A stretch of DNA of 64,000 bases. It comes from a bacterium 210917-DFI.7.65. GTDB lineage: Bacteria > Bacillota > Clostridia > Oscillospirales > Oscillospiraceae. The first letter of the stretch is position 1. Every line of letters starts with the position of its first letter. The DNA lies in the NCBI GenBank assembly GCA_020555865.1, contig JAJCJJ010000001.1:496001-560000 (forward strand), read 5' to 3'. The translations under genes and the position numbers were made by a program. Below, one piece after another: positions 2,880 through 21,200 of this stretch. The notes beneath the pieces are model-generated. The model saw only the letters and a list, made by a program, of their open reading frames with translations, made no database searches and had not been told where the DNA came from.

Positions 2880-2910
2880 GATCATAATGGGCGATCATAA
2901 CGCCAATCAC

Positions 2911-4283
2911 ATGTCAATCCACGCTCCTCTTACAGGGAGCGACAGGCCCACCTCGCAGCTGGCCGCTGTCGTTACCCGATTTCAATCCGCACTCCCCATG
3001 AGAGGAGCGACGACGTGGTACGCGCCCGTGCCCGGGACCTGGAGCGATTTCAATCCACGCTCTCCGTGGGGAGAGCGACGACCAGCTGCCGGAGGCCATG
3101 CGCCAGCTGCGGGAATTTCAATCCACGCTCTCCAAGGGGAGAGCGACGACGCTGCGTAAGCGTGATTTTCAGTTGTTCATATTTCAATCCACGCTCTCCG
3201 AGGGGAGAGCGACAAGAACGTCCGGACGGCTTTGTAATTCCAATCGATTTCAATCCACGCTCTCCGAGGGGAGAGCGACCGATACCATCCCCGCCGATCT
3301 GCCGCCGATGGTGATTTCAATCCACGCTCTCCGAGGGGAGAGCGACATCACACCGGCAGGTAGCATTTACGATGTAAAGATTTCAATCCACGCTCTCCGA
3401 GGGGAGAGCGACCCTGTGCTCGCTAATATTGGTGAGCAAGCTATCCTATTTCAATCCACGCTCTCCGAGGGGAGAGCGACGGATCGGCGGTTTTGCCGTG
3501 TTCGGCAAGGTGGAATTTCAATCCACGTTCTCCGAGGGGAGAGCGACCCTGTATGATGTTGACTATCCTGAAGCTTCAGCTATTTCAATCCACGCTCTCC
3601 GAGGGGAGAGCGACCCCCCGTCATGTGTGTGACGCTGTGGATGTTAAATTTCAATCCACGCTCTCCGAGGGGAGAGCGACGCAGGCAGTTCCTCCGGCTC
3701 CTGCGGATACACGATTTCAATCCACGCTCTCCGAGGGGAGAGCGACGAGCGTGTGGAGCTTCACAGCGGCGCTTTTAGCATTTCAATCCACGCTCTCCGA
3801 GGGGAGAGCGACTCCAAGGCGAGAACTATTTTAACTCTCTCCCCTTGATTTCAATCCACGCTCTCCGAGGGGAGAGCGACTGACGCTGCGTAAGCGTGAT
3901 TTTCAGTTGTTTATATTTCAATCCACGCTCTCCGAGGGGAGAGCGACGATGGCCTCTATGGATAACATGCAAGAATTTGTTATTTCAATCCACGCTCTCC
4001 GAGGGGAGAGCGACTGTTTCTTCCATCTTACCAGCTAGATAGTCAAGCATTTCAATCCACGCTCTCCGAGGGGAGAGCGACGAGTATGCGAAAAAGGTCA
4101 AAGCTGACGCAATCAAATTTCAATCCACGCTCTCCGAGGGGAGAGCGACAGCAGCTTGTGACTGGCTTCTCCACCGGTATGACATTTCAATCCACGCTCT
4201 CCGAGGGGAGAGCGACGGGCTTCACTTGCCCCGCAAAGATTTATTTTCCAATTTCAATCCACGCTCTCCGAGGGGAGAGCGAC
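2911..4283 (-). CRISPR. Type I-C CRISPR array, 21 repeats and 20 spacers
   Basis: 33-bp repeats alternate with 33-36-bp spacers. Read on the minus strand each repeat starts GTCGCTCTCC, folds into a CGCTCTCC/GGAGAGCG stem and ends in the type I-C handle TGGATTGAAAT. Repeats start at 2911, 2979, 3047, 3115, 3181, 3247, 3314, 3380, 3448, 3515, 3582, 3648, 3714, 3780, 3848, 3915, 3982, 4049, 4117, 4184 and 4251. The first four (low coordinates) carry substitutions in the stem-loop and the one at 3515 has a single change; the others are identical. Degeneration at the low end and cas2 plus the leader at the high end fix transcription as leftward, with the newest spacers near 4250. Two spacers (3148-3180 and 3881-3914) are near-duplicates. 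Confidence 0.98.
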
Positions 4284-4466
4284 AGCAAACATATCCAAAA
4301 TGCTGCGTGGCGGTTTGGATAGATTTCCTAATTTTTGAAAAAGATGCTTATAAAATCAAAACAAAAATAATTACTAAATGGGATTTTTAGTAAAGACAGG
4401 TATGTTTATCCTGCTTTTCAAGTGCGAACCCAATAAGAAGTCGGTGTGCGCTTCCTGTTCGCACGG
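4284..4466 (-). promoter_or_regulatory. CRISPR leader
   Basis: An AT-rich stretch of 183 bp lies between the cas2 stop and the first (leader-proximal) repeat. Next to cas2 it holds an inverted repeat GTGCGAAC (4422-4429) / GTTCGCAC (4457-4464) with a central GTGTGCGCTTCC, which resembles the element I recall downstream of cas2 in other type I-C loci. Next to the array a smaller pair ATCCAAA/TTTGGAT (about 4294-4320) flanks 14 bp. No clean promoter could be assigned. Confidence 0.7.
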
Positions 4467-4757
4467 TTAGAGAATCATAGGTTCCTCCGGCAGGTACGTC
4501 TGCTTGCAGCCGAAGTGTTCGATTTTATTTTCATAGCGTTTCCCTAAATAATAAAACCGAAGGCTGTCCTTTTCCGGATCCATGATCGCGCATAGCTTTG
4601 CCTGGAGCAATTTACACTGAGCCGGGTCCAGCAGACATTCAAAAACAGAATTTTGGACCCGCTGCCCGTAGTTTACACATTGCTTGGCAATCTGCCGCAG
4701 TCGTTTCCGCCCAGCAGAATCTTCCGTGTTGACGTCATAGGTAATCAAGACCAGCAT
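4467..4757 (-). CDS. cas2: CRISPR-associated endonuclease Cas2 (type I-C)
   Basis: A 96-residue protein of the usual Cas2 length. It starts MLVLITYDVNTED, with the ferredoxin-like first strand and the conserved aspartate (D8), and contains YGQRVQNSVFECLL, the typical second strand region. With Cas1 it forms the integrase complex that inserts new spacers at the leader end of the array. It is the last gene of the cas operon, 9 bp after cas1, and is followed directly by the leader. Confidence 0.97.
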   Translation of the reverse strand: MLVLITYDVNTEDSAGRKRLRQIAKQCVNYGQRVQNSVFECLLDPAQCKLLQAKLCAIMDPEKDSLRFYYLGKRYENKIEHFGCKQTYLPEEPMIL

Positions 4758-4766
4758 TCTAGAACC

Positions 4767-5798
4767 TCACTTCCACAAAAAAGGCGGATAGGAATCCAGG
4801 TCTCCCCGGAGACAGCGTGCCAGAAGAAGCGCTTGAATATAGGGAACCAATCCCCAGGAAAGTTTTTCCTGCAAATATGGATGGGTCAGTATCTCTTGTT
4901 TGCGAGTCTGCCAATGCTTCAAAAAAGTCCGGCAGCCCGTGTCATTTAGAAAGACAGCGCCGTTTTCTTGAATATCAAAGTCTGATTTGCCCACGACACG
5001 GTTATTGACGAGCGTCAAAACAAACCGGTCTGCCATACAGGGGCGCAGTTCTTCTATGAGGTCGAGTGCCAGAGAGGTGCGTCCGGGGCGGTCACGGTGG
5101 AGAAAGCCTACATAGGAATCCAGGCCCACACTCTCCAGGGCGGAGGCGCAATCGTGGGTCAGAAGGCTGTATGCAAAGGAGAGAAGTGCGTTTGCAGGGT
5201 CTTGTGGCGGACGGCGGTTCCGGCCTGAGAATTGGAAGAACGGCTTTTCACCCAAAAGCATTTGGTCAAACACGCTGAAGTAGAGCGTGGCCCCCACCCC
5301 CTCCAAACCACGCAGAGCATCCAGAGAGAACGCCTCCGTGATTTGGGGAAGGAGTTCCTTCAACTGTGAGGAGACGGACGAAAGATGGCCGGAATCCAGC
5401 CGGAGACCATGGTCGCGCCGGGTCCGTTCGATGCTCCAGCGAGCATTGTATATCTTTCCGAAGATCATGCTGCGGGCGATTCGGCAACAGGGATCCGGAT
5501 CATCTGCGATCCGGTACTGGGTACGGCGAAGCAGTACATTTCCCGAACTTGCTCCGGTAACGCGGGCCAAGAAGCGTCCCCGGGGGGTACAAAATGCCAA
5601 CGAGATGTCCCGCTGCGCACAGGCACCCATGAGAGCGGGGGATGCTCCCGGGTAGGAGAACGATATAATCCCGGCCAATGTGTGGAGGGGATACCGGGCA
5701 ATTTCCTGGTGTTCCCGGTTTGCCACCACATTTTCCCCGTCCAGGGAAAGGTAGACGTCCTCGCTGGTGACAAAGAGAGTGTTCAGCAGATGTTTCAT
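4767..5798 (-). CDS. cas1: CRISPR-associated endonuclease Cas1 (type I-C)
   Basis: A 343-residue spacer integrase. The start is placed at the ATG at 5798, which overlaps the cas4 stop as ATGA and gives MKHLLNTLFVTSEDVYLSLD, the normal Cas1-IC N-terminus; the frame is open further upstream but that part overlaps cas4. The metal-binding residues are in place: E166 in RGLEGVGA, H234 in GFLHRDRPGR and E249/E250 in LDLIEELRP. The C-terminal half is the alpha-helical catalytic domain. It acts with Cas2, and with Cas4 for PAM-side trimming, in adaptation. Confidence 0.97.
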   Translation of the reverse strand: MKHLLNTLFVTSEDVYLSLDGENVVANREHQEIARYPLHTLAGIISFSYPGASPALMGACAQRDISLAFCTPRGRFLARVTGASSGNVLLRRTQYRIADDPDPCCRIARSMIFGKIYNARWSIERTRRDHGLRLDSGHLSSVSSQLKELLPQITEAFSLDALRGLEGVGATLYFSVFDQMLLGEKPFFQFSGRNRRPPQDPANALLSFAYSLLTHDCASALESVGLDSYVGFLHRDRPGRTSLALDLIEELRPCMADRFVLTLVNNRVVGKSDFDIQENGAVFLNDTGCRTFLKHWQTRKQEILTHPYLQEKLSWGLVPYIQALLLARCLRGDLDSYPPFLWK

Positions 5799-6475
5799 GT
5801 CAGTTCCTCCATGGCCTTCTTCAGATAGTTGGACACGGATCCGTGCCGGGTCAGTTGGGGCAGGCAAAGGTCCTTTAAGGAGCAGGCGCTACAAGACTTG
5901 CTGGGCTTTGCTTTCGGTGTATGCCCACGACGGTAAAACTGGTGCATCTCGTCTGAGTAAGACTGGACACGCTCCCGCAGTTCTGGTGAAAAGGTGACTG
6001 TTGTGCGCCGCCGCGGCTCTCCATAAAAGAGTGCACCCTCAGTGATAGAACAGCAGAGCATCTCCTCCAGGCACATAGCCTGGGCGCAAAGCTGGAGTTC
6101 ATCCGCCTGGTGTGCTTTGGGGCGGCCACGCTTGTACTCCACCGGGAAAGGGAGCCAAAGGCCATCCTCCCCATGGAGCGGGACGCCCTCCGATGAGGCA
6201 TGAAACTCCACTACATCGCACTGACCGGACAGACCCAAGGCATTGGAGACGATGGACAGAGCGCGGAGGATCAGCAGATCGCCCCGGCGCTCCCGGAGGG
6301 AGGCGTCGTGGGCCCGCTGATGGAGCAGGTTTCCCTCCACGGTACGCAGGTTTTCCTGCCACTGCTGCTCCAGATGGATCAGCGCCCACTGCCGGCGGCA
6401 GAACGCAAAGTGCTGGATTCCGGAGAGAGGGAGGAGGTCCTCCTCACGATAGATGGTCACCCCATGCGGATGCAA
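5795..6475 (-). CDS. cas4: CRISPR-associated exonuclease Cas4 (type I-C)
   Basis: A 226-residue RecB-like nuclease with an iron-sulfur cluster. C26 (in FAFCRRQW) and the C-terminal cluster C195, C198 and C204 (SCSACSLKDLC) are the four cysteine ligands. The nuclease residues are D87 (GQCDVVEF) and E113/K115 (PVEYKRG). In type I-C it trims prespacers and fixes PAM orientation together with Cas1-Cas2. Its start overlaps the cas7 end by 19 bp and its stop overlaps the cas1 start by 4 bp, so the genes are translationally coupled. All key residues are present. Confidence 0.95.
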   Translation of the reverse strand: MHPHGVTIYREEDLLPLSGIQHFAFCRRQWALIHLEQQWQENLRTVEGNLLHQRAHDASLRERRGDLLILRALSIVSNALGLSGQCDVVEFHASSEGVPLHGEDGLWLPFPVEYKRGRPKAHQADELQLCAQAMCLEEMLCCSITEGALFYGEPRRRTTVTFSPELRERVQSYSDEMHQFYRRGHTPKAKPSKSCSACSLKDLCLPQLTRHGSVSNYLKKAMEELT

Positions 6476-7353
6476 GTGATCCCGGTGGGAAGGGAGGACT
6501 CGTCCACCGTGACGGTGTAGTCCTGATAGGAGCGGGCCGGCGCGGGGTCTTGCGGATCGTTTCGATTCACATGGACCGCCTCAAACAGCTTCCAGGCGGG
6601 GGCATTGCCCAGTTCGCTGTCATGCTTGAATACGATCAGGTTCCGGACGGCCATTTTCCCACGGGCGGCAGAGTGGTCGTGCTCGAACATATTCAAAATG
6701 GCTTCCCACAGAAGAGACAGGTCCTCTTCGGAGAACCCAGTGGTCTTACGGGCCAGATTGGCGGAAATATAGCCCTCGCAGCGGTAGAGACTGTAAGGGA
6801 CGATATACTTGCGGCCCATTTCCGTCCCTTTCTTCTCCGCGTCTGCTTCCGTTGTGATGGCCACGCGGGTGATGGTGACTTCCTGAGGCACGATGGGCTC
6901 CACGCTGCGGGCAAAGCCCAGCTGGACCGGGCCGCGCACCTGACCGCAGTTCAGGGCAGCTTTTACGAAGGTGGTCATAACCGCGCCGAAGGTGCGGATG
7001 TCGTAGAAGTTAGCGCACATCCAGTCCCGGATTTTGTGGTCCAGGTCGGGGTCGCTCTTTTTCTTTTCCTTGACGGACTTCTCGTCCACCTCCAGGGCCG
7101 CATAAGCTTCATTGTCGCTGCGATTCAGAGGCACACCATCTTTGACGTAGATGCGGTAGCCGGTGCTGTCCTCTTTTACGGTCTCTACATAGTTGCGGAT
7201 CTTCCGCTTCAGGCACACGTCCGTGACAATGCCGAGGCCGGTCTCCGGATCCACCCGGGGCATATTGCCTGCGTCCGGATCTCCGTTGGGATTGCCGTTT
7301 TCCACGTCGAACAAAATCACGAATTCATAGCGGTTTTTGATGGGATCAGACAT
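6457..7353 (-). CDS. cas7: Cascade backbone protein Cas7 (Csd2, type I-C)
   Basis: A 298-residue RAMP protein that polymerises along crRNA to form the Cascade backbone. The start is set at the ATG at 7353 (MSDPIKNRYEFVILFDVENG), which matches the family N-terminus FVVLFDVxNGNPNGDP; the frame is open further upstream into cas8c. The GNPNGDPDAGNMPR motif follows at about residues 21-34. It overlaps the cas8c end by 8 bp. The protein contacts the spacer part of the crRNA in six-base steps, which matters for the regulatory RNA described at 10003. Confidence 0.96.
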   Translation of the reverse strand: MSDPIKNRYEFVILFDVENGNPNGDPDAGNMPRVDPETGLGIVTDVCLKRKIRNYVETVKEDSTGYRIYVKDGVPLNRSDNEAYAALEVDEKSVKEKKKSDPDLDHKIRDWMCANFYDIRTFGAVMTTFVKAALNCGQVRGPVQLGFARSVEPIVPQEVTITRVAITTEADAEKKGTEMGRKYIVPYSLYRCEGYISANLARKTTGFSEEDLSLLWEAILNMFEHDHSAARGKMAVRNLIVFKHDSELGNAPAWKLFEAVHVNRNDPQDPAPARSYQDYTVTVDESSLPTGITCIRMG

Positions 7354-9121
7354 GTTTTGGTTCCTCCTTCTTTTGATAGCGGGCCTGGGTCTGGTGATAA
7401 TAGCCAAGCTGGAATGAGCCCTGCTGGGGCAGATTCAACCGGGCGGGATACTCTGTTCCATCCAGTTTGGAAAACAGCTCCGTGAGCTGCTTGTCATAGA
7501 CAATGGACAGCCCCCGGTTGGAGCTGCACAGCTTTTTCAGATGCTTCTGTGCCAGATTGGTCAGCACCGGAAAGATGATAGCCGGAGTGGCGGCTGCGGA
7601 ATTGAAATACTTATCTTTGATGGTGGCGTTGAGGCCTGGATTTGCGGACTCCTGAATGGCTTCCAGGACGGAGAAGAGCCGCCCCAGCGTGTAAGGGATA
7701 TTGTTGGCATCGGGATTGAGAGACACTTGTAAGACCTCCTTCGGTATATCTGGATTTTCGCGGTTTGCCGTTTCACTCAACTTGATATAGTAGGCCTTTA
7801 GGATCGCTGCCCGGCCTCGGGTGACTTCCCGCTCCGCCCGGATGCGCAGGGTCACGCCGTTGAGCAGCGTAGCGGGGTAGCGGGTGTTCAGCAGTACGGC
7901 CCGCAGAACCTCGCCAGCCAGGTCGGGAGCGGGGGATTTATCTCTGGAGTTCTGATTGACCGTCTCGTTGAGCAGCCTCCAGAGAGGTAGCGTCTCAAAT
8001 TTGTCATACGCAGGACGGACGACCTCCAACCGACGGTAGTGGGCCTGGACATTGTCCAGAAACCCTTTGAACGTGTTGTGCAGGAAGAACCGTACGGAAA
8101 GCCGGGCGGCGTTGGGGGAGAGACCCAAGACATAGAAGTCCATATTAGGGTCCAGCTTGTCCTCTTGATAGATCACCGGCTGTCCGGCACAGAGACTTTT
8201 GACCATTCCGCGCAGGTCGCTTTCTGTATAGGAGGGGACGGCGGAGCCGAAAGCAACCCCTTCAAACAGCGCGGCGTAGGCCGGTTTTGCGTTTCTGGAC
8301 CAGCAGACCACTGTGGCGTCACCGATGCGGAACACATGGTCCCGATCCGCCAACAGGTGGTTCAGGGCGGAGGTATAGGCAAAAGAGGCATATTTTCCGG
8401 TGGGCGCATTTAAGTTCTGCTCCTTTCCATAGGAGCAGAAGGCCGGAGCGTTGAAGGATACCAGCGCCGCGCCGCTGGATTGGGCGCCCGCCACGTTTTT
8501 GATAGAGGGATGGATATTTTCGATGGGTCCCATCGCACCGGTGACGAGGCAGATGCCCTGTGGGCCGTCTCCAGCGGCATTGTAGTCATTTTCCCACGCC
8601 TGTTGGATGGCTGGATCATTGTGGACGAAGCCTTCCGCTGTGCGGAAAATTAGGTTTCCGCCAGCAAGAATGCCGTCCAGATGTTCTTGGAGAGCTGGGT
8701 TTTCCCTTGCCTCTTGTGGATCCCAGGTGCGAAAGAACGCCAAAACAGCCTGGGCCGCTGGAGAATCCACATCCTTCAGCAGACTTTCGTGGAGTGCTTT
8801 ACAGGCGGCGAAGCATTCTTGTGTTCGCTGGGATTTGCCTTTGTTGTCGATCCCTAAAAAATAGCTGGAGTTGTCACAAAGAAAATTCGCCGCCACACCA
8901 ACTGTCCGTTTCACAGGGGCAGGGAGTGAAATACTCTGGGGTGCAAGAACCATTTTTTTACCCTTTGCCTGTTTTGTCTGCATAAAGTCGACACGCTCCA
9001 ACGTCCCGTCCATTGCTAGGCAGAGGGCATAGGACACCTTCACCTTTATCCATCCTGGAGCATCGATCTTCCCTTCCCGTTCCAGAGCCTGATAATACTC
9101 AGTCAGCGCTTGAAGGATCAT
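7346..9121 (-). CDS. cas8c: Cascade large subunit Cas8c (Csd1)
   Basis: A 591-residue protein of the usual Csd1 length. It begins MILQALTEYYQALEREGKID and contains the family patterns GPIENIHPSIKNVAGAQSSG, VSFNAPAFCSYGKEQ and SPNAARLSVRFF. Cas8c recognises the PAM and recruits Cas3, and in type I-C an internal start in its 3' part produces the small subunit Cas11c; such an internal start could not be fixed here by eye. It overlaps cas5c by 4 bp (ATGA). Confidence 0.95.
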   Translation of the reverse strand: MILQALTEYYQALEREGKIDAPGWIKVKVSYALCLAMDGTLERVDFMQTKQAKGKKMVLAPQSISLPAPVKRTVGVAANFLCDNSSYFLGIDNKGKSQRTQECFAACKALHESLLKDVDSPAAQAVLAFFRTWDPQEARENPALQEHLDGILAGGNLIFRTAEGFVHNDPAIQQAWENDYNAAGDGPQGICLVTGAMGPIENIHPSIKNVAGAQSSGAALVSFNAPAFCSYGKEQNLNAPTGKYASFAYTSALNHLLADRDHVFRIGDATVVCWSRNAKPAYAALFEGVAFGSAVPSYTESDLRGMVKSLCAGQPVIYQEDKLDPNMDFYVLGLSPNAARLSVRFFLHNTFKGFLDNVQAHYRRLEVVRPAYDKFETLPLWRLLNETVNQNSRDKSPAPDLAGEVLRAVLLNTRYPATLLNGVTLRIRAEREVTRGRAAILKAYYIKLSETANRENPDIPKEVLQVSLNPDANNIPYTLGRLFSVLEAIQESANPGLNATIKDKYFNSAAATPAIIFPVLTNLAQKHLKKLCSSNRGLSIVYDKQLTELFSKLDGTEYPARLNLPQQGSFQLGYYHQTQARYQKKEEPKHV

Positions 9122-9783
9122 CCCCGCACCTCCCCGCTGTTCCGGTCCGGGACGTTCAGAACTCCGTTTTGGAGGGAGCCCCGGAAGAATAGGGGCCGAA
9201 TGTTCTCCGGGTCGGTATAGTCCATGTCGTAGAGCATCCAGCCCAAGTCCTGGGTCTTGTTTTTCAGTTCATCAGGGCATGGGGGGAGTTCCACGCACCA
9301 CCGGAATTGGGCGGGAAATTCCCGGCAGCCGAAGCAGGGCTGGTGATAGAACTGCCCCCGCTGAATGCGTCGCTTCACAATGTCCTGGAATTTTCCAGGG
9401 TTGTCCCCTTCGGCGGCCCGGTCCGTCATATCAAAATGGGCTTCGATCACATAGTGTACGTCCCGCAGCAGCAAGGCGGCCCGCTGCTGAATGTCGTCTG
9501 AGGTGCACAAATACAGCTGTCCCGCCCCCTTTTCCATAACGGTGCGTGCCGTCCGGGCTGGGATTTTGGATTTTATTTCGTTGCGCCGCAGGTTGGTGAA
9601 GCGGATGGGGGTACACACGTGAATCCGGTCAATCGTCCACCGTAGGCCGGGATGCCAATAGATGGCTTCAATCAAACCTCGGGCAGCAGAGGGTGTCATC
9701 ACGTCATAACTGACCCGTTCCACTTTCATCTCCGGACGAGTAAATAGTGCGTAGTCTCCCCAGACTTCGAGGCATATGGGCAT
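9118..9783 (-). CDS. cas5c: Cas5c crRNA-processing endonuclease (type I-C)
   Basis: A 221-residue RAMP protein which in type I-C replaces Cas6. It cuts pre-crRNA at the base of the repeat stem and stays on the 5' handle. The start is the ATG at 9783 because it has a good ribosome site (AAAGGAGTG) 6 bp upstream and gives the family N-terminus MPICLEVWGDYALFTRPEMK; the upstream extension of the open frame covers the promoter region and is not used. Motifs YDVMTPSAARGLIEAIYW and PIRFTNLRRNEIKSK are typical Cas5d/c. It is the first gene of the six-gene cas operon. Confidence 0.96.
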   Translation of the reverse strand: MPICLEVWGDYALFTRPEMKVERVSYDVMTPSAARGLIEAIYWHPGLRWTIDRIHVCTPIRFTNLRRNEIKSKIPARTARTVMEKGAGQLYLCTSDDIQQRAALLLRDVHYVIEAHFDMTDRAAEGDNPGKFQDIVKRRIQRGQFYHQPCFGCREFPAQFRWCVELPPCPDELKNKTQDLGWMLYDMDYTDPENIRPLFFRGSLQNGVLNVPDRNSGEVRG

Positions 9784-9912
9784 GTTTTTCACTCCTTTCA
9801 TTGTAAGTAGATATTTGGTATGGTGGATAGCATGGAGTTGGGACATATTTTTGGAAAACAGAACAAACTCAAATATGCCCCAATGATTCACACTGTCTAT
9901 TTGACAAAATTT

Positions 9913-9941
9913 ACTATATCATATCCAGGTTTTTTCGTCAA
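9913..9941 (-). promoter_or_regulatory. Promoter of the cas5c-cas2 operon
   Basis: On the minus strand, TTGACG (9941-9936), a 17-bp spacer and TATAGT (9918-9913) give a near-consensus sigma-A promoter. The start of transcription would be near 9906, about 120 nt before cas5c. Its -35 box lies inside the partial protospacer of the CRISPR-like RNA (9965-9928). Confidence 0.8.
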
Positions 9942-9965
9942 GTTGATATAAACCTAACTATGGAA
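9928..9965 (-). promoter_or_regulatory. Putative Cascade operator: partial protospacer with TTC PAM over the cas -35 box
   Basis: On the minus strand TTC (9965-9963) is followed by CATAGTTAGGTTTATA (9962-9947). The spacer of the CRISPR-like RNA begins CATAGATAGGTGTAGA. Positions 1-5, 7-11, 13, 14 and 16 agree. Mismatches fall at 6 and 12, the bases that Cascade flips out, then at 15 and from 17 on. A bound Cascade would cover about 9962-9928, including the -35 box at 9941-9936. The match is direct observation; the regulatory role is inference. Confidence 0.75.
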
Positions 9966-9967
9966 AC

Positions 9968-9996
9968 TTGATAATTTTCTTGCAGTATGGTATAAT
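9968..9996 (+). promoter_or_regulatory. Promoter of the CRISPR-like RNA
   Basis: TTGATA (9968-9973), a 17-bp spacer and a perfect TATAAT (9991-9996) on the plus strand, divergent from the cas operon promoter. The predicted first transcribed base (10003) is the first base of the repeat-like element. Confidence 0.85.
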
Positions 9997-10002
9997 CCCA
10001 AT

Positions 10003-10093
10003 GTCGTTGAATTCAACGTGGATTGAAACCATAGATAGGTGTAGACGGGCATATTGACGTAGCGCGAGGGTAAATCTTACCTTCGCGCTACGT
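10003..10093 (+). ncRNA. CRISPR-resembling RNA (CreR-like) predicted to steer Cascade to the cas promoter
   Basis: The plus strand at 10003-10029 reads GTCG, a palindromic stem CGTTGAATTCAACG and the handle TGGATTGAAAC. That is the plan of the local type I-C repeat (GTCG, stem, TGGATTGAAAT) with a different, shorter stem. It is a single copy, not followed by a second repeat. The next bases from 10030 form a spacer-like segment that runs into a strong terminator stem (10057-10093). A sigma-A promoter starts transcription exactly at 10003. The segment partly matches, in register and with a TTC PAM, the cas operon promoter. Known CRISPR-resembling RNAs (CreA, CreR) of other subtypes use partial complementarity to let Cascade repress without DNA cleavage, and I infer the same here. 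A chance degenerate repeat is the alternative. Confidence 0.8.
10057..10093. terminator. Bidirectional terminator of cas3 and the CRISPR-like RNA
   Basis: A 17-bp stem with a single G-T wobble (arms 10057-10073 and 10077-10093, loop ATC) stands 9 bp beyond the cas3 stop. On the plus strand it is followed by TGTTATAATT and would end the CRISPR-like RNA. Confidence 0.85.
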
Positions 10094-10101
10094 TGTTATA
10101 A

Positions 10102-12240
10102 TTAGATAAACAATCCCTTTCCGCTGTCCGCTTTCAGGCTCAAGCCGGTATATTCGGAATAGAGGTCTGGAGTGGAAAGGATTACCGAGCCGTCCTCCAA
10201 CCGCTCCAGATCTCCGGCCTGGTCCAGTGCGTTGAAGTGCTGCTCATAGATGGAAACCCCGTACTGTCCCAGTTGGCGGTATAGGTTTCGACTGTGTTCT
10301 CCGCTCCGCAGCCGCTCGACTAGTCCGGCGCCTTCATCCTTGGGGATATAGACCGTGACGGTAGGGCTGTCGATCAGATGAAACCGCTCGGACACCGTGC
10401 GGAAGGGAAACAATTCAGACTGCATCAGAGGGAGAATCTGCTGCACATCCTGGGCTTCTGCTCCTTTCAAGTCCAGCAGTCTTGTAAAATAGGCGTGAAC
10501 AGCCTCCGGAGAAGTAATATCTTCATAATGGGCCATAGCATCCCGGCCAGCTCCAACGGCAGTGGCAAAGAGGGGCGGTGTGCTGCCCTCGCCTTGGAAC
10601 ACGGTGACGATACTGCGTTCCAGAGGCCGCTTTCCTTCCCGGTTGCACCGTCCGGCGGCCTGGAGGATGGAATCCAGTCCGGCCTCCTCCCGGTAGACGG
10701 CGGGGAAGTCCACATCCACGCCGGCCTCGATCAGGGAAGTGGACACCACCCGGCAGGGAAGCCCCTTGTCCAGGCGGCGGCGGATCTCTTCCAGCTTGGC
10801 CCGGCGGTGAGCGGGATACATGAGGGTGGAGAGATGGAAACACCCCTCGCCCTCCAGCCGCAGAAAGATCTCTTGAGCTGATTTTCGGGAGTTAACAATA
10901 CACAAGACCTGATCCTGCTCCTGGAGTTGTGTGGCAAGTTCCTCATAAGTCATCCGTCCTGCCTGCCGGAAGGTTACGCGCCGGAATACATCCCACAGGA
11001 ATTGCTCCGGCGGGCAGAGTTCCGTGACTGGGAGCTCCGGAGCAAATTCCTGGAAGATGGGGGTCAGTGCCGGTTGGGTGGCGGTGCACAGGACCGCGGA
11101 GACCCGATAGTGCTTGACCAACTGGGTAATGGACCAAACGCAGGGGCGCAGGTAGGGGAGCGGCAACATCTGTGCCTCGTCAAATACAATGACGCTTTGG
11201 GCGATATTGTGGAGTTTCCGGCACTGGGAGGGACGGCAGGAGAAGAGAGATTCAAAAAATTGCACCGCTGTGGTTACGATCACCGGCATATCCCAGGTCT
11301 CGGTAGCACGAGCCAAGCGGGAGGATTCAGGAGTGGCTTCCTGATCCATGTCATAGAGTACGCCCGAGTGGTGCTCTAGAACATAATCCTCCCCCAGGAT
11401 CTCACGGAATTTTTGAGCGGTCTGCTCAATGATGGAAGTGTAAGGGATCACATAGATTATACGAGAAAGGCCCTGTGCTTTAGCTTGAGATAGGGCAAAG
11501 GCCAGAGAGGCCACAGTTTTCCCGCCACCAGTTGGAACGGTCAGCGTGTAGAGGCCAGGGGCACGGCGTTCCCCCTTCTGAATGCACTGCTCTAAAATGG
11601 AGCACCGCTGTGTATTCAGTTCCCCTTTGGGCGGGAACCATCCGGAGATGTAGTTCTGAAGCCGCTGCATCAAAGCATCCATGGATATGTTAGGGTATGC
11701 CATGTGGGGGCTGTTGGCCATAAATTCCGCTGTATCGGAGTAGTCCGCATCCACCAGACAAGAGAAGAGCATGCGAGTGAAAAACATGCCCTCCATCTGT
11801 GGCTCTATAGCATTTGGCAGAGGAGGGGTCGGCAGGGTAAGTTCGGACTGCCAGGCAGCATATTCCGGCAGCCTGCCCTGAAAAGCCCGGTTCATGCGGC
11901 CAAAAAAGGAACTGGAATCTGGGGGGTCTGTTTGACTTCCGCCATCGGGAAGCCCACTGTGATGTCCAGCCACTGCGAACGCTGCATAGGGCTGTCCTAG
12001 CTTAAAACATTCGAAGGCTCCAGCGGTAGCGTGGTCTACCTTTCGACCATCATGTAGCAACCGATTTTGAAATCCGTTGGAATACTTTCCTAGGTCGTGA
12101 GCCAGACCAGCTAGTTCACCTTGTTCTGCGGCACAGAACGCACGTGCAGATGTGCTGCACCGCTGGGCAGTGGACTCCAGATGCTGGAGAACGGTCTGTT
12201 TTCTACCGTCTTCGGTTATATGCGCCAGAAAAAATTCCAT
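10102..12240 (-). CDS. cas3: CRISPR-associated helicase-nuclease Cas3 (type I-C)
   Basis: A 712-residue protein with an N-terminal HD nuclease and a superfamily-2 helicase. HD motifs: H48-D49 (AHDLGKY), H70 (KVDHATAG) and H93-H94 (AGHHSGLP). Helicase: Walker A PTGGGKT at 236-242 and the DExD-type box DEAQ at 354-357, followed by motif-III-like LCTATQPAL and the late motif QAAGRCNREG. The start is the ATG at 12240, which has GAGGAG 10 bp upstream and gives MEFFLAHITEDGRKQT; the open frame extends further but through the promoter. Cas3 is recruited by Cascade and degrades the target strand. It is transcribed apart from cas5c-cas2: it has its own promoter and a terminator. Confidence 0.97.
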   Translation of the reverse strand: MEFFLAHITEDGRKQTVLQHLESTAQRCSTSARAFCAAEQGELAGLAHDLGKYSNGFQNRLLHDGRKVDHATAGAFECFKLGQPYAAFAVAGHHSGLPDGGSQTDPPDSSSFFGRMNRAFQGRLPEYAAWQSELTLPTPPLPNAIEPQMEGMFFTRMLFSCLVDADYSDTAEFMANSPHMAYPNISMDALMQRLQNYISGWFPPKGELNTQRCSILEQCIQKGERRAPGLYTLTVPTGGGKTVASLAFALSQAKAQGLSRIIYVIPYTSIIEQTAQKFREILGEDYVLEHHSGVLYDMDQEATPESSRLARATETWDMPVIVTTAVQFFESLFSCRPSQCRKLHNIAQSVIVFDEAQMLPLPYLRPCVWSITQLVKHYRVSAVLCTATQPALTPIFQEFAPELPVTELCPPEQFLWDVFRRVTFRQAGRMTYEELATQLQEQDQVLCIVNSRKSAQEIFLRLEGEGCFHLSTLMYPAHRRAKLEEIRRRLDKGLPCRVVSTSLIEAGVDVDFPAVYREEAGLDSILQAAGRCNREGKRPLERSIVTVFQGEGSTPPLFATAVGAGRDAMAHYEDITSPEAVHAYFTRLLDLKGAEAQDVQQILPLMQSELFPFRTVSERFHLIDSPTVTVYIPKDEGAGLVERLRSGEHSRNLYRQLGQYGVSIYEQHFNALDQAGDLERLEDGSVILSTPDLYSEYTGLSLKADSGKGLFI

Positions 12241-12266
12241 ATGGATCAAAGTCTCCTCAAAAAATT

Positions 12267-12326
12267 GGTAAAAGGAAAATTTTATCTTCCTTTTACCAGT
12301 ATACAGCATTATCCTAAAAATTCCAA
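12267..12326 (-). promoter_or_regulatory. cas3 promoter with an inverted repeat at the transcript start
   Basis: On the minus strand TTGGAA (12326-12321), a 17-bp spacer and TATACT (12303-12298) form a promoter. Directly downstream a perfect 11-bp inverted repeat (GGTAAAAGGAA, arms 12297-12287 and 12277-12267) spans the likely start site and is followed by TTTTTT and the cas3 ribosome site. It may be a repressor operator or a 5' RNA hairpin. Confidence 0.65.
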
Positions 12327-12411
12327 TGCATTTCGCTCGGCGGATCATTCTCGCCGGGTTGGCGTTTTCACACTAAAATATAGTCAATGCAGGACTCCAC
12401 CATTTCACGGG

Positions 12412-15271: not shown

Positions 15272-18200
15272 TCATTTTACGATGTTCTGGCAGAACCGGG
15301 TCAGGATCGCAGCTACCTGCGCCCGTATAGCATCGCTCTTGGGGGACAGCATGGTGGCGCTGGTGCCGTTGATCAGACCCTCCGCATTAGCCCAGCGGAC
15401 GGCCTCCTCAGCATAGGAGCTGACCTGCGCGGCATCGGTGTATTTGCTCAGGTCCGCTTTGCCCGTGGGGTCATAGCCCTTGTACTGGGCGTAGCGGTAC
15501 AGGATGGTGGCCATCTGCTCTCGGGTGATGGTGTCGTTGGGACCGAACAGCTCGTCGCTGTATCCGGTCACGATGCCGTGCATCCGTGCCCAGTAGACCG
15601 CCGTGGCGTACCATGCCCCGGCGTCCACATCCTTGAAGGGATAGCCCCCAATCCCGTTCTCGATAGTGGGAGAGCCTTCCAGCCGGTAGAGGATCGTTAC
15701 AAGCATGCCGCGGGTGGTGGTCAGATTCGGCTCGAAGGTATTGGCGCCGGTGCCGGTCATGAGGCCGTTTTCGTTGACATACTTCACCGCGTCGTAGTAC
15801 CAGGCGTTGTCCGGCACATCTACGAAGGGATTGCTCCACTGGCCCTCGGGTACGAAGGTCACATCTACACTCACCTTACCGTCCGGCATGGTGAACGTAT
15901 AGCTGTCGTTGCCCTTGCCGGTGACTTTAATCGTGTTGCCGTCCTTGTCGGTGACTGTGACTTTGCCTACCTGATAGCCCTCGTCGGGCTTGGCGGTGAT
16001 TGTTACGCTCTGGCCCGGTTTGGCCTTCTTCGGAGAGACCATTACGACGCCGTGTTCTGTATCTTCCGGGGTCGAAACGGTGTAACTGGGACTGGAGCTG
16101 CCGCTGGATGAGGAGTTGTTTTGTACGGTCAGGATGTAGACGCTGCTCGTTTCTCCGCTGGTCACTGTTACGGTGATGGAATTCTCTCTGCCGGTGGCCA
16201 ATGCCACGGTGGCGCTCAAAGAGGTCTCGCCGGAGATTTCTTCCCCGTTGCTGGAGGAGACCGTAATTCTGGATCCGCCCGCTGCTGCTGCCGCGATAAC
16301 TGCTGTGGAAGTCAGATCAACTGCAGACACGGTATAACGGTAGGTATTTCCCTCCTCGTCCTTGACGAAATCGTCCAGTGTCACACCGGGGATGTTAGAG
16401 AAAAACAGGCTGTTCAGGCTGGCATTGTCTGTGTCCGGTTCCGAAGCCAAATTCGAGTAGGAGACCTGGACGAAGGTTCCCTGTTTGCTGAATGTAAAGT
16501 TCTTTGTCCCCTTCGCCTCGCCAGCCAGCGTAAGCAGGCCGTTGTTTTCATCCATGCCGCCGGTATAGCTCTGTTTCTGTTCCAGCACGTTGCCCTGGGC
16601 GTCCAGCAGAGTGACGATTACATTCCCCGTTGTTGTCTTGGACAAATGCGTGTTTTGAATCGTGACGGAAACTTCGCTTCCCGATTCCGTACTGGACAAG
16701 GTACTGGTAATGATAGCGTCTGCTCCGGTGCGGGCGGCCAGGTTTTCCGCCTCTACTCTGGAATAGTTGTTGCTGGATACTGGCTCTGCCTGGGTATTGC
16801 CGTCTTCGTCCAGGATCTCGGCTTTGACGTGGATCGTCAGACCGCTGTCCGGAAGCTCGGTGAGTTTGTCCGCTTCTGCCTTATCGGCGTTTACTGCATC
16901 CAGATACTCAGATAGCTTAAAGGTCGCCTGCGTACTGTATCCGCCATTGTCAATCATACCGAGATCCGTCGGCTGCTCAATGGTGACAGGCTCCATGCCT
17001 GGAACCGGTTTTTCACAGGTAACGTCGGTATAGAAACCAAGGCGCACCTTGCAGCCGGAATTCTCCAGGACTGCATCGGAGTCATTGTTCAGCTTCACTT
17101 GAATTGTGCGCTCGCCATTTTCTTCACGGACAATTTGGGTTTCGGTGATTTCTGCGTCGGGCAAATCCAGGTAAACAGTGCCTTTGACCTCGTTGGTAGA
17201 GGTGCTGGTCCGGCCGCCTTCCGATGTTCGGGCTGTACCAGAAGCGCCGGCATTCTCATTGAAAGTGGCTGTTACCTGGTACTCCGGATCTACCACCTTG
17301 TCGCCCGGTACTTCATAGTCAGCCATAATACGGATGTTGTTTCCGGGCAGCAGATTCAGGTCGCTCACAGAGGTCTTCGTGTTGCCAACGGTAATCAAAA
17401 TATCGCTGATGGGATGAATACCGCGGTTTTCCACGGTGAACTCGATCTGTGTTATCGCGCCCAGCTTCACGGTTTCATAGTCAGGGAGGAAGGAGGGAAC
17501 CGTGATTTTATCCGCATAGGTTTCTGTAGCGGTATACATGGCAGAACTCCTGGAAGGAACCGATATGGTAACCTGGTCGCCGCCCACGGTCTGCACAGTT
17601 TTGGATACAGCGCCTTCGGCACCATAGGTCGTGCCAAGGATGACCGCCTTAACTTCGTTGATGCGGGCATTGCTGACATAGGCGTCGAAATGGTCGATCA
17701 GGGTACTGTCTTTCATCTCTGCCACGTCGACTACGCCGGTAAGGCCGATCAGTTCCTGATTCTCACCATAGGTATAGAACTTAATGCCTTTGAGCACATC
17801 CTTTTCTGCCGGCAGGGAGTTTTCGTTCTCGCTGTCAATCACCTCGGCCCGTTCTACCCATAGAATCGACAAATCGTTGATCGTATTGCTGTTCTTGGTA
17901 AAACGGAAGTTGGAGGTGATGGATGCGTTCTGCCCGCTGGCAATCTGATTCAAAGAATCCGGCAGCAGCTGGGCAGTTACCCCTTCCTTGCCAAATTCTA
18001 AAAGGCGGATATCCGCGACCGCGTCGTTCGAAGTGCTCCCGCCGCCGTCTAAAGCTCCGTCACTGGACGCGGACTGCTGGGCAAACCATCCCAACACAAA
18101 GCGTTCGCCATGACCGGGGAATTCCACAGAGGTAAGCTGTGGGTTTTCGTCCAGGTAACTGTCATTTGTCGTCTGAACATTGCGGGAAACCGTTCCATCC

Positions 18201-21200
18201 ACATCGATCACAGCATAGGCGATCTCACGGTCGGCAGTCGTGGTGTCCCGGCAGTCTGCATCCAGCGTGTAGGCCACAGCCGCAGTGCCGTCCTCCAGCA
18301 TGGCGGCTGTGATCCCTTTCACAGCGCCGGAGGTTCCGTTATACAGAACCTGTGCATCGCTCCAACCATTCCCGTCATACATCCGGTACAGGATGGTGTC
18401 CTTCTGGTCAAAGGCGGTAATGCTTTCTGCATCGCTGGAGACCACAGAGCGCCACGCCACGATGGCTTTCCCATCCTTGGCCGCCGTTACGGGGGCCATG
18501 TCGGGGGTGGAATTGTCAGTGAGCCGGGTGGTCTCCCACTGCGTTCCGTTGTAAACGGCGGCATATACTTCGGTGCCGCCCATCATCATCATCTGATCTG
18601 CGTCTGTCAGTACCGAGTTTTGGTCTTTGTTCAGGCTGACCATTTGCCTGGTCCAGGCGGAAACTGTGAACTTCTGCTTGCCGGAGATGGAAAGCTGGCT
18701 GTCTCCGTAGCCGCCGTCATCAATCACGCCGGCTTTCTGATAAGAGTCGCCCTGCTTTGTGGCATACACGGCGCGGGTGTTCTCCACATTCGCCTTGCCC
18801 ATGTCAGAGAGATAGGCCACCAGCTCCCCATCGTCTGTCACAATGGGATTGGCGTAAGGATAGGTGTTGCTTTCCAGGTTTTTCAGACCCTGCTGCTCCT
18901 CCGAATCCAGAGCGAACAGGCTGATTCCCGGCCCCCACTGGCGGCCGCCGTTATCCAGATAGGAACGATCCTCCAAAGTCGGAGCCAGGTTCAGGGCATA
19001 CATCTGCTGCCCGTTTAGGCTGATCCGCTGGAGCGACTTGTCCTTCAGCAGCTCTTCAATGGTGTTTCGGTTGGCGTCCTGATTCTTTTTCCAGCTGTCA
19101 TTGATGGCATTCCAATCGCCTTTCGGCCAATCCTTGCCGAGGAATTCTTCGGACCACAGGATATCTTCATACTGGATAAACAGGAATTTGATCAGGTATT
19201 CCAGACCCATCTCGCCTTTAATTTGGTAATGTTGGCCGTCCTGCCTGTAACCATCCTTGTTGGACTTGCCGTCGGCCACATTGATGATGGTATTTTTCGT
19301 GTCCATATAGGGCCGGTTGAGCCAGCGGAATTGCATATCCACGTCGACCTGTCCGTACATGCCGATCTTCATGGCAACGACGGAGTAGTCAAAGCCCGCG
19401 CCGACAAACAGCCGCAGGTAAAGGTAGATACGCAGTTCGGTCAGAAAATCATTTCCGCTTCCGTACTCGGCGGCCGTCTGGTCGTAGTAGGAAACGGACA
19501 GGGCGTCCATCTTTACATGGGCCGTGCCGCCGACCGAGAGGGTCGTGGTAAGGGGGAGGGGGCCGACCCAGGTGGTTTTGTTCCAGGAATAGCTGACGCC
19601 GCCGCCGGTGTTAAAGCCGCCGTTCAGGATCTGGATCTTCCATTCCTTCTCATCAAAGTCGTAATAGATGAGCGACTCCATATAGCCGCCTACGCCCCAT
19701 TCCAGAGAGCGGATGTGCTTGCTGTTCTTTGCGTCCTGAAATTCCTTCACGATGTCGTCCCCATACTTTTCCGGGTTCTTCTTCGCATTGGCCAGTCCGC
19801 TCAGTTCCCGGAAACCGGGCGCGTAGTCAAAGTCGGCATTGTTCTTGGACTCCCCATAGATGCCGGACACCTGGTCCTTGTCGTTCATGTCGCCCAAATT
19901 GACGGTAATGAACCCCATAAACTTGGTTGGGTCATCTGTGGGCGCGACCTGCATCTGAAAGAGTTCTTTGTTGCTTGCCGTATAGTTGCCGCCGCCTGCC
20001 AGTTCAATGGCCATGCTTACCCATTCATCTTGGGTCACAGTCTCGTCGGTTTTGGCAGAGGTACCAAAGTCCCTGCCCATACCCTGCAGTTCTGCCAGCA
20101 GGGCCTTGCTGTCCTCGACCGTGCCTGCCCCCCGCAGGTTGCACAGGCGGAAGGACAGAGCCTCCTGACGGAGGAGCTTATCGTTCTTATAATAGTCCAG
20201 GCGCGCGCCCTCGCTGCCGCCGTATTCCACTGCGCCATCCAGAGTTTCCTTGTCCAGATGGACGGTGTACTGGCTGACCAGCGTGTCGAGGAACGGATAG
20301 GTCCTGCTCTCCATTGTATATTCTCCCGTGCCGTCTGCAACAGCAACGTTATCGGAGGTAAACAGCTGGAGCTTCGGGGTCACGCCGTCCATATCCTCGC
20401 CCCACCACATGACCATAGTGCTGACAATGGACTGGGGCAGGCTGTCGTTGGGTCCCACATAGCCGGTCTTGTCCAGTATGCTGCTGGGTACTGCGTAGTT
20501 GGAATAGCTGGCCGCCTGCATGGCGATAAACGGCTGCTTTTTCCCGCTGTCGTTTGCGCGGAAATTGATGATGGCCTCGCCGCTGCCCACAAAGGCGTCT
20601 TCGCTGGCGTTGGCGTCCAGACTGACCAGGATGGGATAATACCGGTAAGGCTTCTCATCGTTGTCGCACAGAGAGATCTGGAAGACGTACTCCACTTTGT
20701 CTCCTGCGTACAAAGCATCTCCGGGGAGATCCCACTGGGTCTGGTCCATGGTTACGGTCAGCTTGCCGTCTTTGCCCAATTTGATGTTGTTTTCCGTACT
20801 ATTTCCGGGTCTCTTTGCGTCGCGCTCATTTTGCAGCGCAAACATTGCCCCCTGTTTATATTCGTCATTCACATACACGCCGCCGCGGAAATTGACCATA
20901 CCCTCATAAGGCGTACCGTCCGGATTTTTGATGTAGAGATAGGCATAAGCCGCCCGGCGGAGTTCCATGTTGTTGCAGGGATAGCGCTGCAGCTGGGTCC
21001 AGTCCCCTTCGCCGGTTTCCAGGGCGGCGCTGGGGAAGGTGCCCACATAGGTGAGGCCGTCCTTTTCCGACGAGCAGTACACATCGCCGACAATGCCGCT
21101 CTCCTCATAGATCGCCGCCGCGCCGGTCTCATCTGAAACTGCCGTCTTGGGTTCGCCGTTCCCATTGGTGTAAGTCAGCGTTGTTTTCGCCTGGGGATAG

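Follow-up and report, generated by a model that had tools for sequence, protein, structure and literature searches.

The type I-C cas locus and its small RNA gene

On its minus strand, the window, i.e., the whole stretch of 64,000 nucleotides that was analysed, has a complete set of type I-C cas genes, with NCBIfam matches to cas2, cas1c, cas4, cas7/Csd2, cas8c/Csd1, cas5c and the Cas3 helicase. Between cas3 and cas5c lies a small plus-strand gene (about 10000-10098) made up of a predicted promoter, a degenerate repeat, a guide and a terminator hairpin. The cas locus contains, apart from its array, a crRNA-like gene combining repeat-like and spacer-like sequence, as in CreR, the cas-regulating RNAs described for types I-B, I-E and V-A (Liu et al., 2023, Cell Host Microbe, as presented in the reviews PMC13131331, PMC12737573 and PMC12948488). 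The features are as follows:

2904..4285, minus strand: type I-C CRISPR array (repeat families D1, D3 and D4)
4467..9121, minus strand: cas8c, cas7, cas4, cas1 and cas2, 3' of cas5c (open reading frames and NCBIfam)
9118..9783, minus strand: cas5c, leading gene of the putatively controlled unit (TIGR01876, 4.4e-50)
9913..9941, minus strand: TTGACG-17-TATAGT, the predicted promoter for the genes cas5c-cas8c-cas7-cas4-cas1-cas2 (consensus matched at 10 of 12, with TG ahead of the -10)
9928..9962, minus strand: putative operator, a 35-nt protospacer with its paired part at 9962-9947, holding the cas -35 hexamer (sequence, window scan, shuffles)
9963..9965, minus strand: PAM of the operator, TTC (sequence)
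9968..9996, plus strand: TTGATA-17-TATAAT, the predicted promoter for the CreR-like RNA (consensus matched at 11 of 12, with TG ahead of the -10)
10003..10029, plus strand: degenerate CRISPR repeat GTCGTTGAATTCAACGTGGATTGAAAC, with GTCG, a short stem-loop (5-pair hairpin) and the handle GTGGATTGAAAC (sequence, array repeats, fold)
10030..10054, plus strand: spacer-like guide, 25 nt up to the terminator stem (sequence and fold)
10055..10095, plus strand: terminator hairpin of 19 pairs, at the expected place of the next repeat's hairpin (fold)
10102..12348, minus strand: cas3 (TIGR01587, 3.6e-36)

The handle differs from the array repeat GTGGATTGAAAT only in its last base. The predicted -35 element of the RNA gene, TTGATA (9968-9973), stands back to back with the cas promoter, both being consensus predictions, and promoter-like sequences have been found in relatives too. 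The fold of the RNA is unusually stable (z -5.5), none of 200 shuffles being as stable, and an Rfam search over the small gene returned no family at the cut-off. As for the terminator hairpin, it has been reported from E. coli crRNAs that such a hairpin can act in place of a repeat (PMC5904413). Since cas3 is located upstream on the strand of cas5c, it falls outside the operator's promoter and hence outside the transcription unit that would be controlled in the window.

Two array spacers (3148-3177 and 3881-3911) are almost the same, sharing the core CGCTGCGTAAGCGTGATTTTCAGTTGTT with a small offset and one base changed, perhaps as two acquisitions from one target. The array repeats at the low-coordinate end (2904-3013) are degenerate, as expected for the trailer end. 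Elsewhere in the window, 15272-23734 on the minus strand is one open frame of 2820 aa.

Pairing between guide and operator

On the minus strand, TTC at 9965-9963 is followed from 9962 by CATAGTTAGGTTTATATCAA, and the spacer of the RNA, starting at 10030, reads CATAGATAGGTGTAGACGGG. The two agree at 13 of 16 positions (9962-9947) and at 12 of 12 when positions 1-14 are counted without 6 and 12. The original prediction had described a match behind TTC at positions 1-5, 7-11, 13, 14 and 16, in which 6 and 12 were the only mismatches among the first 14; both statements hold, to which a third mismatch within the first 16, at position 15, has to be added. In all, mismatches fall at 6, 12, 15 and 17-20, so the third block is weak in the window (15 and 17 mismatch). 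In Xanthomonas, TTC has been demonstrated to serve as a I-C PAM (PMC8406640).

When the spacer was shuffled 200,000 times and compared with 9784-10010, 12/12 was reached four times with any PAM and never with TTC. Across the whole 64-kb window, no site other than the operator (12/12) and the spacer (12/12) scores at least 10/12, and the best of the 21 array spacers against 9784-10000 scored 10/12. A chance match of guide to operator is ruled out by these shuffles together with those made in relatives, described below. A transcription factor binding site copied into the RNA is also ruled out, because the match starts right at the end of the handle, skips every sixth position and stands behind TTC or TTT.

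Related loci were collected by a cas5c search, and the best 80 of 188 relatives were analysed together with the window, giving 81 loci. A handle, defined by at most two mismatches, a position at most 400 bp upstream of cas5c and an orientation antisense to it, was found in 35 of the 81. Every one of these 35 handle-bearing loci has an operator for its own spacer, scoring 12 in 28 loci, 11 in five and 10 in two over the same 12 positions. The controls stayed far below. Spacers swapped between dissimilar loci (n=1000) gave 11/12 five times, shuffled spacers of the relatives (n=7000) 13 times and other registers of the same RNAs (n=1575) once, and 12/12 was absent from all three. Moreover, the PAM was left out of the scoring, yet TTC precedes the operator in 22 of the 35 loci, TTT in 12 and TTA in one.

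The position profile is the strongest evidence for pairing between guide and operator. Sites were picked on positions 1-5 and 7-11 only, and the unused positions 13-17 nevertheless match at 0.91, 0.97, 0.94, 0.91 and 0.83 among the 35 loci (best 80 of 188 relatives plus the window). Positions 6, 12 and 18 only reach 0.29, 0.23 and 0.26, against expected values of 0.27, 0.24 and 0.26, and positions 19-26 remain at background level (0.20-0.34). Positions 1-5, 7-11 and 13-17 thus match in 83-100% of the loci. Class 1 complexes flip out every sixth nucleotide of the guide (PMC11127173), and three blocks of five with the sixth base free are the reading pattern expected from this. Pairing ends at 17 across the 35 loci and is already weak by 15 in the window.

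Covariation of spacer and operator had been named beforehand as a test, and it proved strong, with operators in 35 of 35 loci and 42 co-changes vs 8 one-sided changes. The changes were counted over 17 nearest-neighbour pairs of loci, which share members, so that not all co-changes are independent events. At the read positions, the 42 matched co-changes stand against two spacer-only, six operator-only and three unmatched double changes; at positions 6 and 12 a single co-change stands against 28 other changes. Between the window and its relative L002, for example, spacer and operator both differ at read positions 1 and 9.

The closing hairpin is likewise shared. A terminator-like hairpin is present in all 35 handle-bearing loci of this set (best 80 of 188 plus the window), with a median start at spacer position 25, and in 33 of them it is stronger than the best of 70 shuffles. 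It starts at spacer position 22-28 in 25 of the 35, vs 4 of 45 hairpin-yielding shuffles.

Operator position and the proposed repression of cas

In the window, the predicted cas -35 hexamer, TTGACG (9941-9936), lies inside the 35-nt protospacer (9962-9928), and the operator is 2 bp from the predicted -35 of the RNA itself. Limited complementarity of the spacer to its own predicted cas promoter, beside a PAM, is a further trait found in CreR. Among the 35 loci (best 80 of 188 plus the window), 29 have the stretch formed by the PAM and 17 nt upstream of the predicted cas -35 at a distance of 0-18 bp, where 5.7 would be expected within 0-20 bp. In these 29 the operator is -5 to 41 bp from the predicted -35 of the RNA, between both promoters, and in the other six it is downstream of the predicted cas -35. 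The coverage of the cas -35 box claimed in the original prediction is true of the window and does not extend to the family: the 35-nt footprint overlaps the best predicted -35 or -10 in 17 of the 35 loci, where random placement would give 18.4. For this reason overlap with the core promoter was dropped as a conserved feature, and distance to the -35 was kept instead. The conserved feature is an operator abutting the cas -35 from the upstream side. The orientation of the complex is minus in 13 loci and plus in 22 and, as most plus-oriented footprints are just upstream of the -35, occlusion would there need to extend past the PAM.

From these observations it is highly likely that the RNA loads into the adjacent type I-C Cascade, leads it to the predicted cas promoter and represses cas5c-cas8c-cas7-cas4-cas1-cas2. 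The RNA would be transcribed from 10000-10098 and cut by Cas5c at the base of the repeat hairpin, giving a processed RNA with an 11-nt handle, and the terminator hairpin would replace the 3' repeat. With pairing limited to 17 nt, Cascade would bind without licensing cleavage by Cas3 or priming. For the E. coli I-E Cascade, 5 nt plus the PAM are enough for binding and affinity is maximal by 18 bp, while interference and priming require at least 18-25 bp (PMC5904413); in one I-C system, self-killing required at least 27 bp (PMC8406640). Given these length limits, a guide that pairs no further than position 17 is in keeping with binding but no cleavage. Free Cascade carrying the RNA would lower cas output, and crRNAs or anti-CRISPR proteins occupying Cascade would raise it. 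Since the operator lies between two divergent -35 boxes, the complex probably also reduces production of the guide RNA itself. One E. coli case, in which no effect on local transcription was described (PMC5904413), has to be counted against repression. For CreR in types I-B, I-E and V-A, the reviews report that cas is repressed, that crRNAs compete and that anti-CRISPR proteins lift the repression (PMC13131331; PMC12737573), and these three properties are carried over to the window locus by analogy. The feedback of Cascade and RNA on cas put forward in the original prediction is very probably right.

A similar architecture is found in CreA, the antitoxin RNA of CreTA (type I-B and others), which consists of one or two repeat-like sequences and a spacer whose partial match to a promoter stands behind TTC, and which acts as a Cascade-dependent repressor of a toxin gene (PMC9458426). 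By analogy, the RNA and Cascade could repress a toxin gene lying between the operator and cas5c, control of cas being incidental, and the leader of about 120 nt ahead of cas5c in the window would leave room for a small RNA. This is very unlikely, as the protein ORF scan found no frame of at least 80 aa between 9892 and 10101, in several relatives no more than 25-110 bp separate the operator centre from the start of cas5c, leaving little space for a toxin, and the leaders fold without a shared structure. Moreover, whereas the spacer of CreA matches a toxin promoter, the match in the window is at the predicted cas5c promoter, and 14 of the 15 new order-level operators (see below) are likewise close upstream of cas5c. 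The window leader (9784-9906, minus strand) does contain a 13-pair hairpin, and its stability shows no excess over shuffles (z -0.5 and -0.7); leaders of some relatives are more stable than shuffles (z -5.3 in L002 and -3.7 in L009). A hairpin shared in the cas5c 5' UTR was rejected, the alignment of nine long leaders having given no consensus structure.

Bacterial activators often bind just upstream of the -35. The position of the operator in the 29 loci would therefore suit an activator as well, with Cascade recruiting or stabilising RNA polymerase. Activation is nonetheless very unlikely: it is implausible in those six of the 35 loci that have the operator on the downstream side of the predicted cas -35, and which speak for repression; the orientation of the complex varies; and in the window the protospacer covers the cas -35. 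The proximity of the operator to the -35 of the RNA in the same 29 loci would also fit an RNA that chiefly controls its own promoter, with a small effect on cas. This too has very little probability, given that five of the remaining six loci (L069, L075, L078, L079 and L080) have the operator 44-140 bp away from the -35 of the RNA, and that its distance to the cas -35 is the tighter of the two. Solitary I-C repeats of phages can inhibit I-C systems (RacrIC1, PMC10651486), but that the RNA is such a decoy, or a relic repeat, tying up Cascade and matching the promoter by chance is extremely improbable. Its place within the cas locus of the host, both here and in relatives, speaks against it, and a guide/operator match and co-evolution far beyond chance already contradict it.

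On the sequence evidence, the RNA is hence best read as a CreR-type autorepressor of cas that belongs to subtype I-C, with an unusually clear pairing rule of 17 nt and period 6. Like CreR, it is encoded as a crRNA-like gene in the cas locus, with limited complementarity to its own predicted cas promoter, and frames of at least 80 aa show no obvious toxin gene next to it. It differs in belonging to subtype I-C and, compared with CreRs as the reviews describe them, in its single repeat closed by a terminator hairpin, its operator between back-to-back promoters and a pairing stop at or before 17 across loci. The window system has the gene build and the promoter match of CreR, as far as sequence can show them, and by comparison with CreR it is very probably alike in function. 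CreA (PMC9458426) shares the degenerate repeat, the partial match behind TTC and repression through Cascade, and differs in its target, a toxin gene instead of the predicted cas promoter. In type II-A, tracr-L likewise leads the effector of its system to the cas promoter for repression, although it works with Cas9 as a tracrRNA-derived single guide, RNA and effector both being unrelated to those of the window (PMC11417352). Racr RNA anti-CRISPRs include a solitary I-C repeat with its own promoter, but they are viral, are not placed beside cas genes and inhibit effector assembly (PMC10651486); the window RNA is located between cas3 and cas5c instead of in a viral genome away from cas. No earlier account of CreR in subtype I-C was recognised in the literature searched, and the primary CreR paper may list one.

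If correct, this reading adds subtype I-C to the systems with RNA-guided autorepression of cas, on the sequence evidence of dozens of guide/operator pairs that look independent. Dozens of related bacteria show such a pairing, each time by other sequences, and these pairs can be read as a natural mutational record of the guide positions on which Cascade binding depends in vivo (1-5, 7-11 and 13-17), of the free sixth ones and of the point where pairing ends. With this record, a question of long standing, which pairing length divides harmless binding from self-cleavage or priming, can be tested with native sequences. For users of native I-C systems, a predicted built-in brake on cas expression is named.

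Distribution and locus layouts

Wider sampling was scored with a fixed threshold of 13/15 and the PAM TTN. The phylum-level sample consisted of 102 loci (left out were G002, already in the set, G244, G054 and places below the cut-off) and the order-level sample of 86 (left out were loci already in the set and places below the cut-off). The first two samples had served to shape the detection rule, whose exclusion zone was loosened before the wide scoring; the order-level sample alone was fetched after the rule existed, and its scoring was not strictly blind. Hits were obtained in 37 of 80 loci of the first sample (the best 80 of 188), 5 of 102 at phylum level and 19 of 86 at order level. Shuffled spacers scored in 2 of 7500, 3 of 4490 and 1 of 3650 cases, respectively. 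Under this rule 43 of the 80 related loci gave no hit, and five of the 80 had too little upstream sequence to be judged.

After removal of duplicates, 20 new pairs were obtained, 15 at order level and five at phylum level. At order level, the RNA is on the strand opposite to cas5c in 15 of 15, and 14 of 15 have the operator upstream of cas5c by 25-321 bp, the exception (L250) lying near the cas3 start. At phylum level the standard layout is seen in L156 alone, and the other four pairs (L092, L155, L160 and L161) are less certain. Together with the first sample (best 80 of 188 relatives), 57 distinct pairs have been collected, 52 of them in the standard layout; L056, L092, L155, L160 and L161, with odd geometry or with the RNA on the cas strand, are flagged and counted. 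One of the carriers, Butyricicoccus pullicaecorum DSM 23266 (L028), is a cultured bacterium. Candidates judged false were L047 (13/15), whose handle and site are more than 5 kb downstream of cas5c and which is put down to chance or an array, and L072, L116 and L168 from a relaxed scan, put down to chance (five loci vs four null hits). Two stretches among viral contigs fit a pattern, and neither encodes a relative of the window Cas5c.

The occurrence of the RNA follows the gap upstream of cas5c. Among the best 80 of 188 relatives, 32 of 37 loci score when this gap is at least 200 bp, two of eight at 100-199 bp and three of 30 below 100 bp, L047 among the latter. The RNA accordingly accompanies the split cas3 / cas5c layout, and in that layout the operator does not govern the cas3 promoter. 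There is about an even chance that these pairs represent a widespread and fast-rewired I-C circuit in Oscillospirales and relatives, in which a CreR-led Cascade between back-to-back promoters throttles cas and its own guide, complementarity being held at 17 nt (three Cas7 segments), just below the length for self-cleavage or priming.

Some arrangements deserve separate mention. The first-sample relatives L001-L080 show two I-C layouts: where the gap between cas3 and cas5c is long, the RNA is mostly present, and where it is short, the RNA is mostly absent. In L041 (about 2641-2726), as in L250, RNA and operator are upstream of cas3 and not of cas5c. In the phylum-level loci L161 and L155 the RNA is on the cas strand, with a site 37-39 bp from the handle that in L161 matches at 17 of 17 positions; these two are possibly a different arrangement, or chance.
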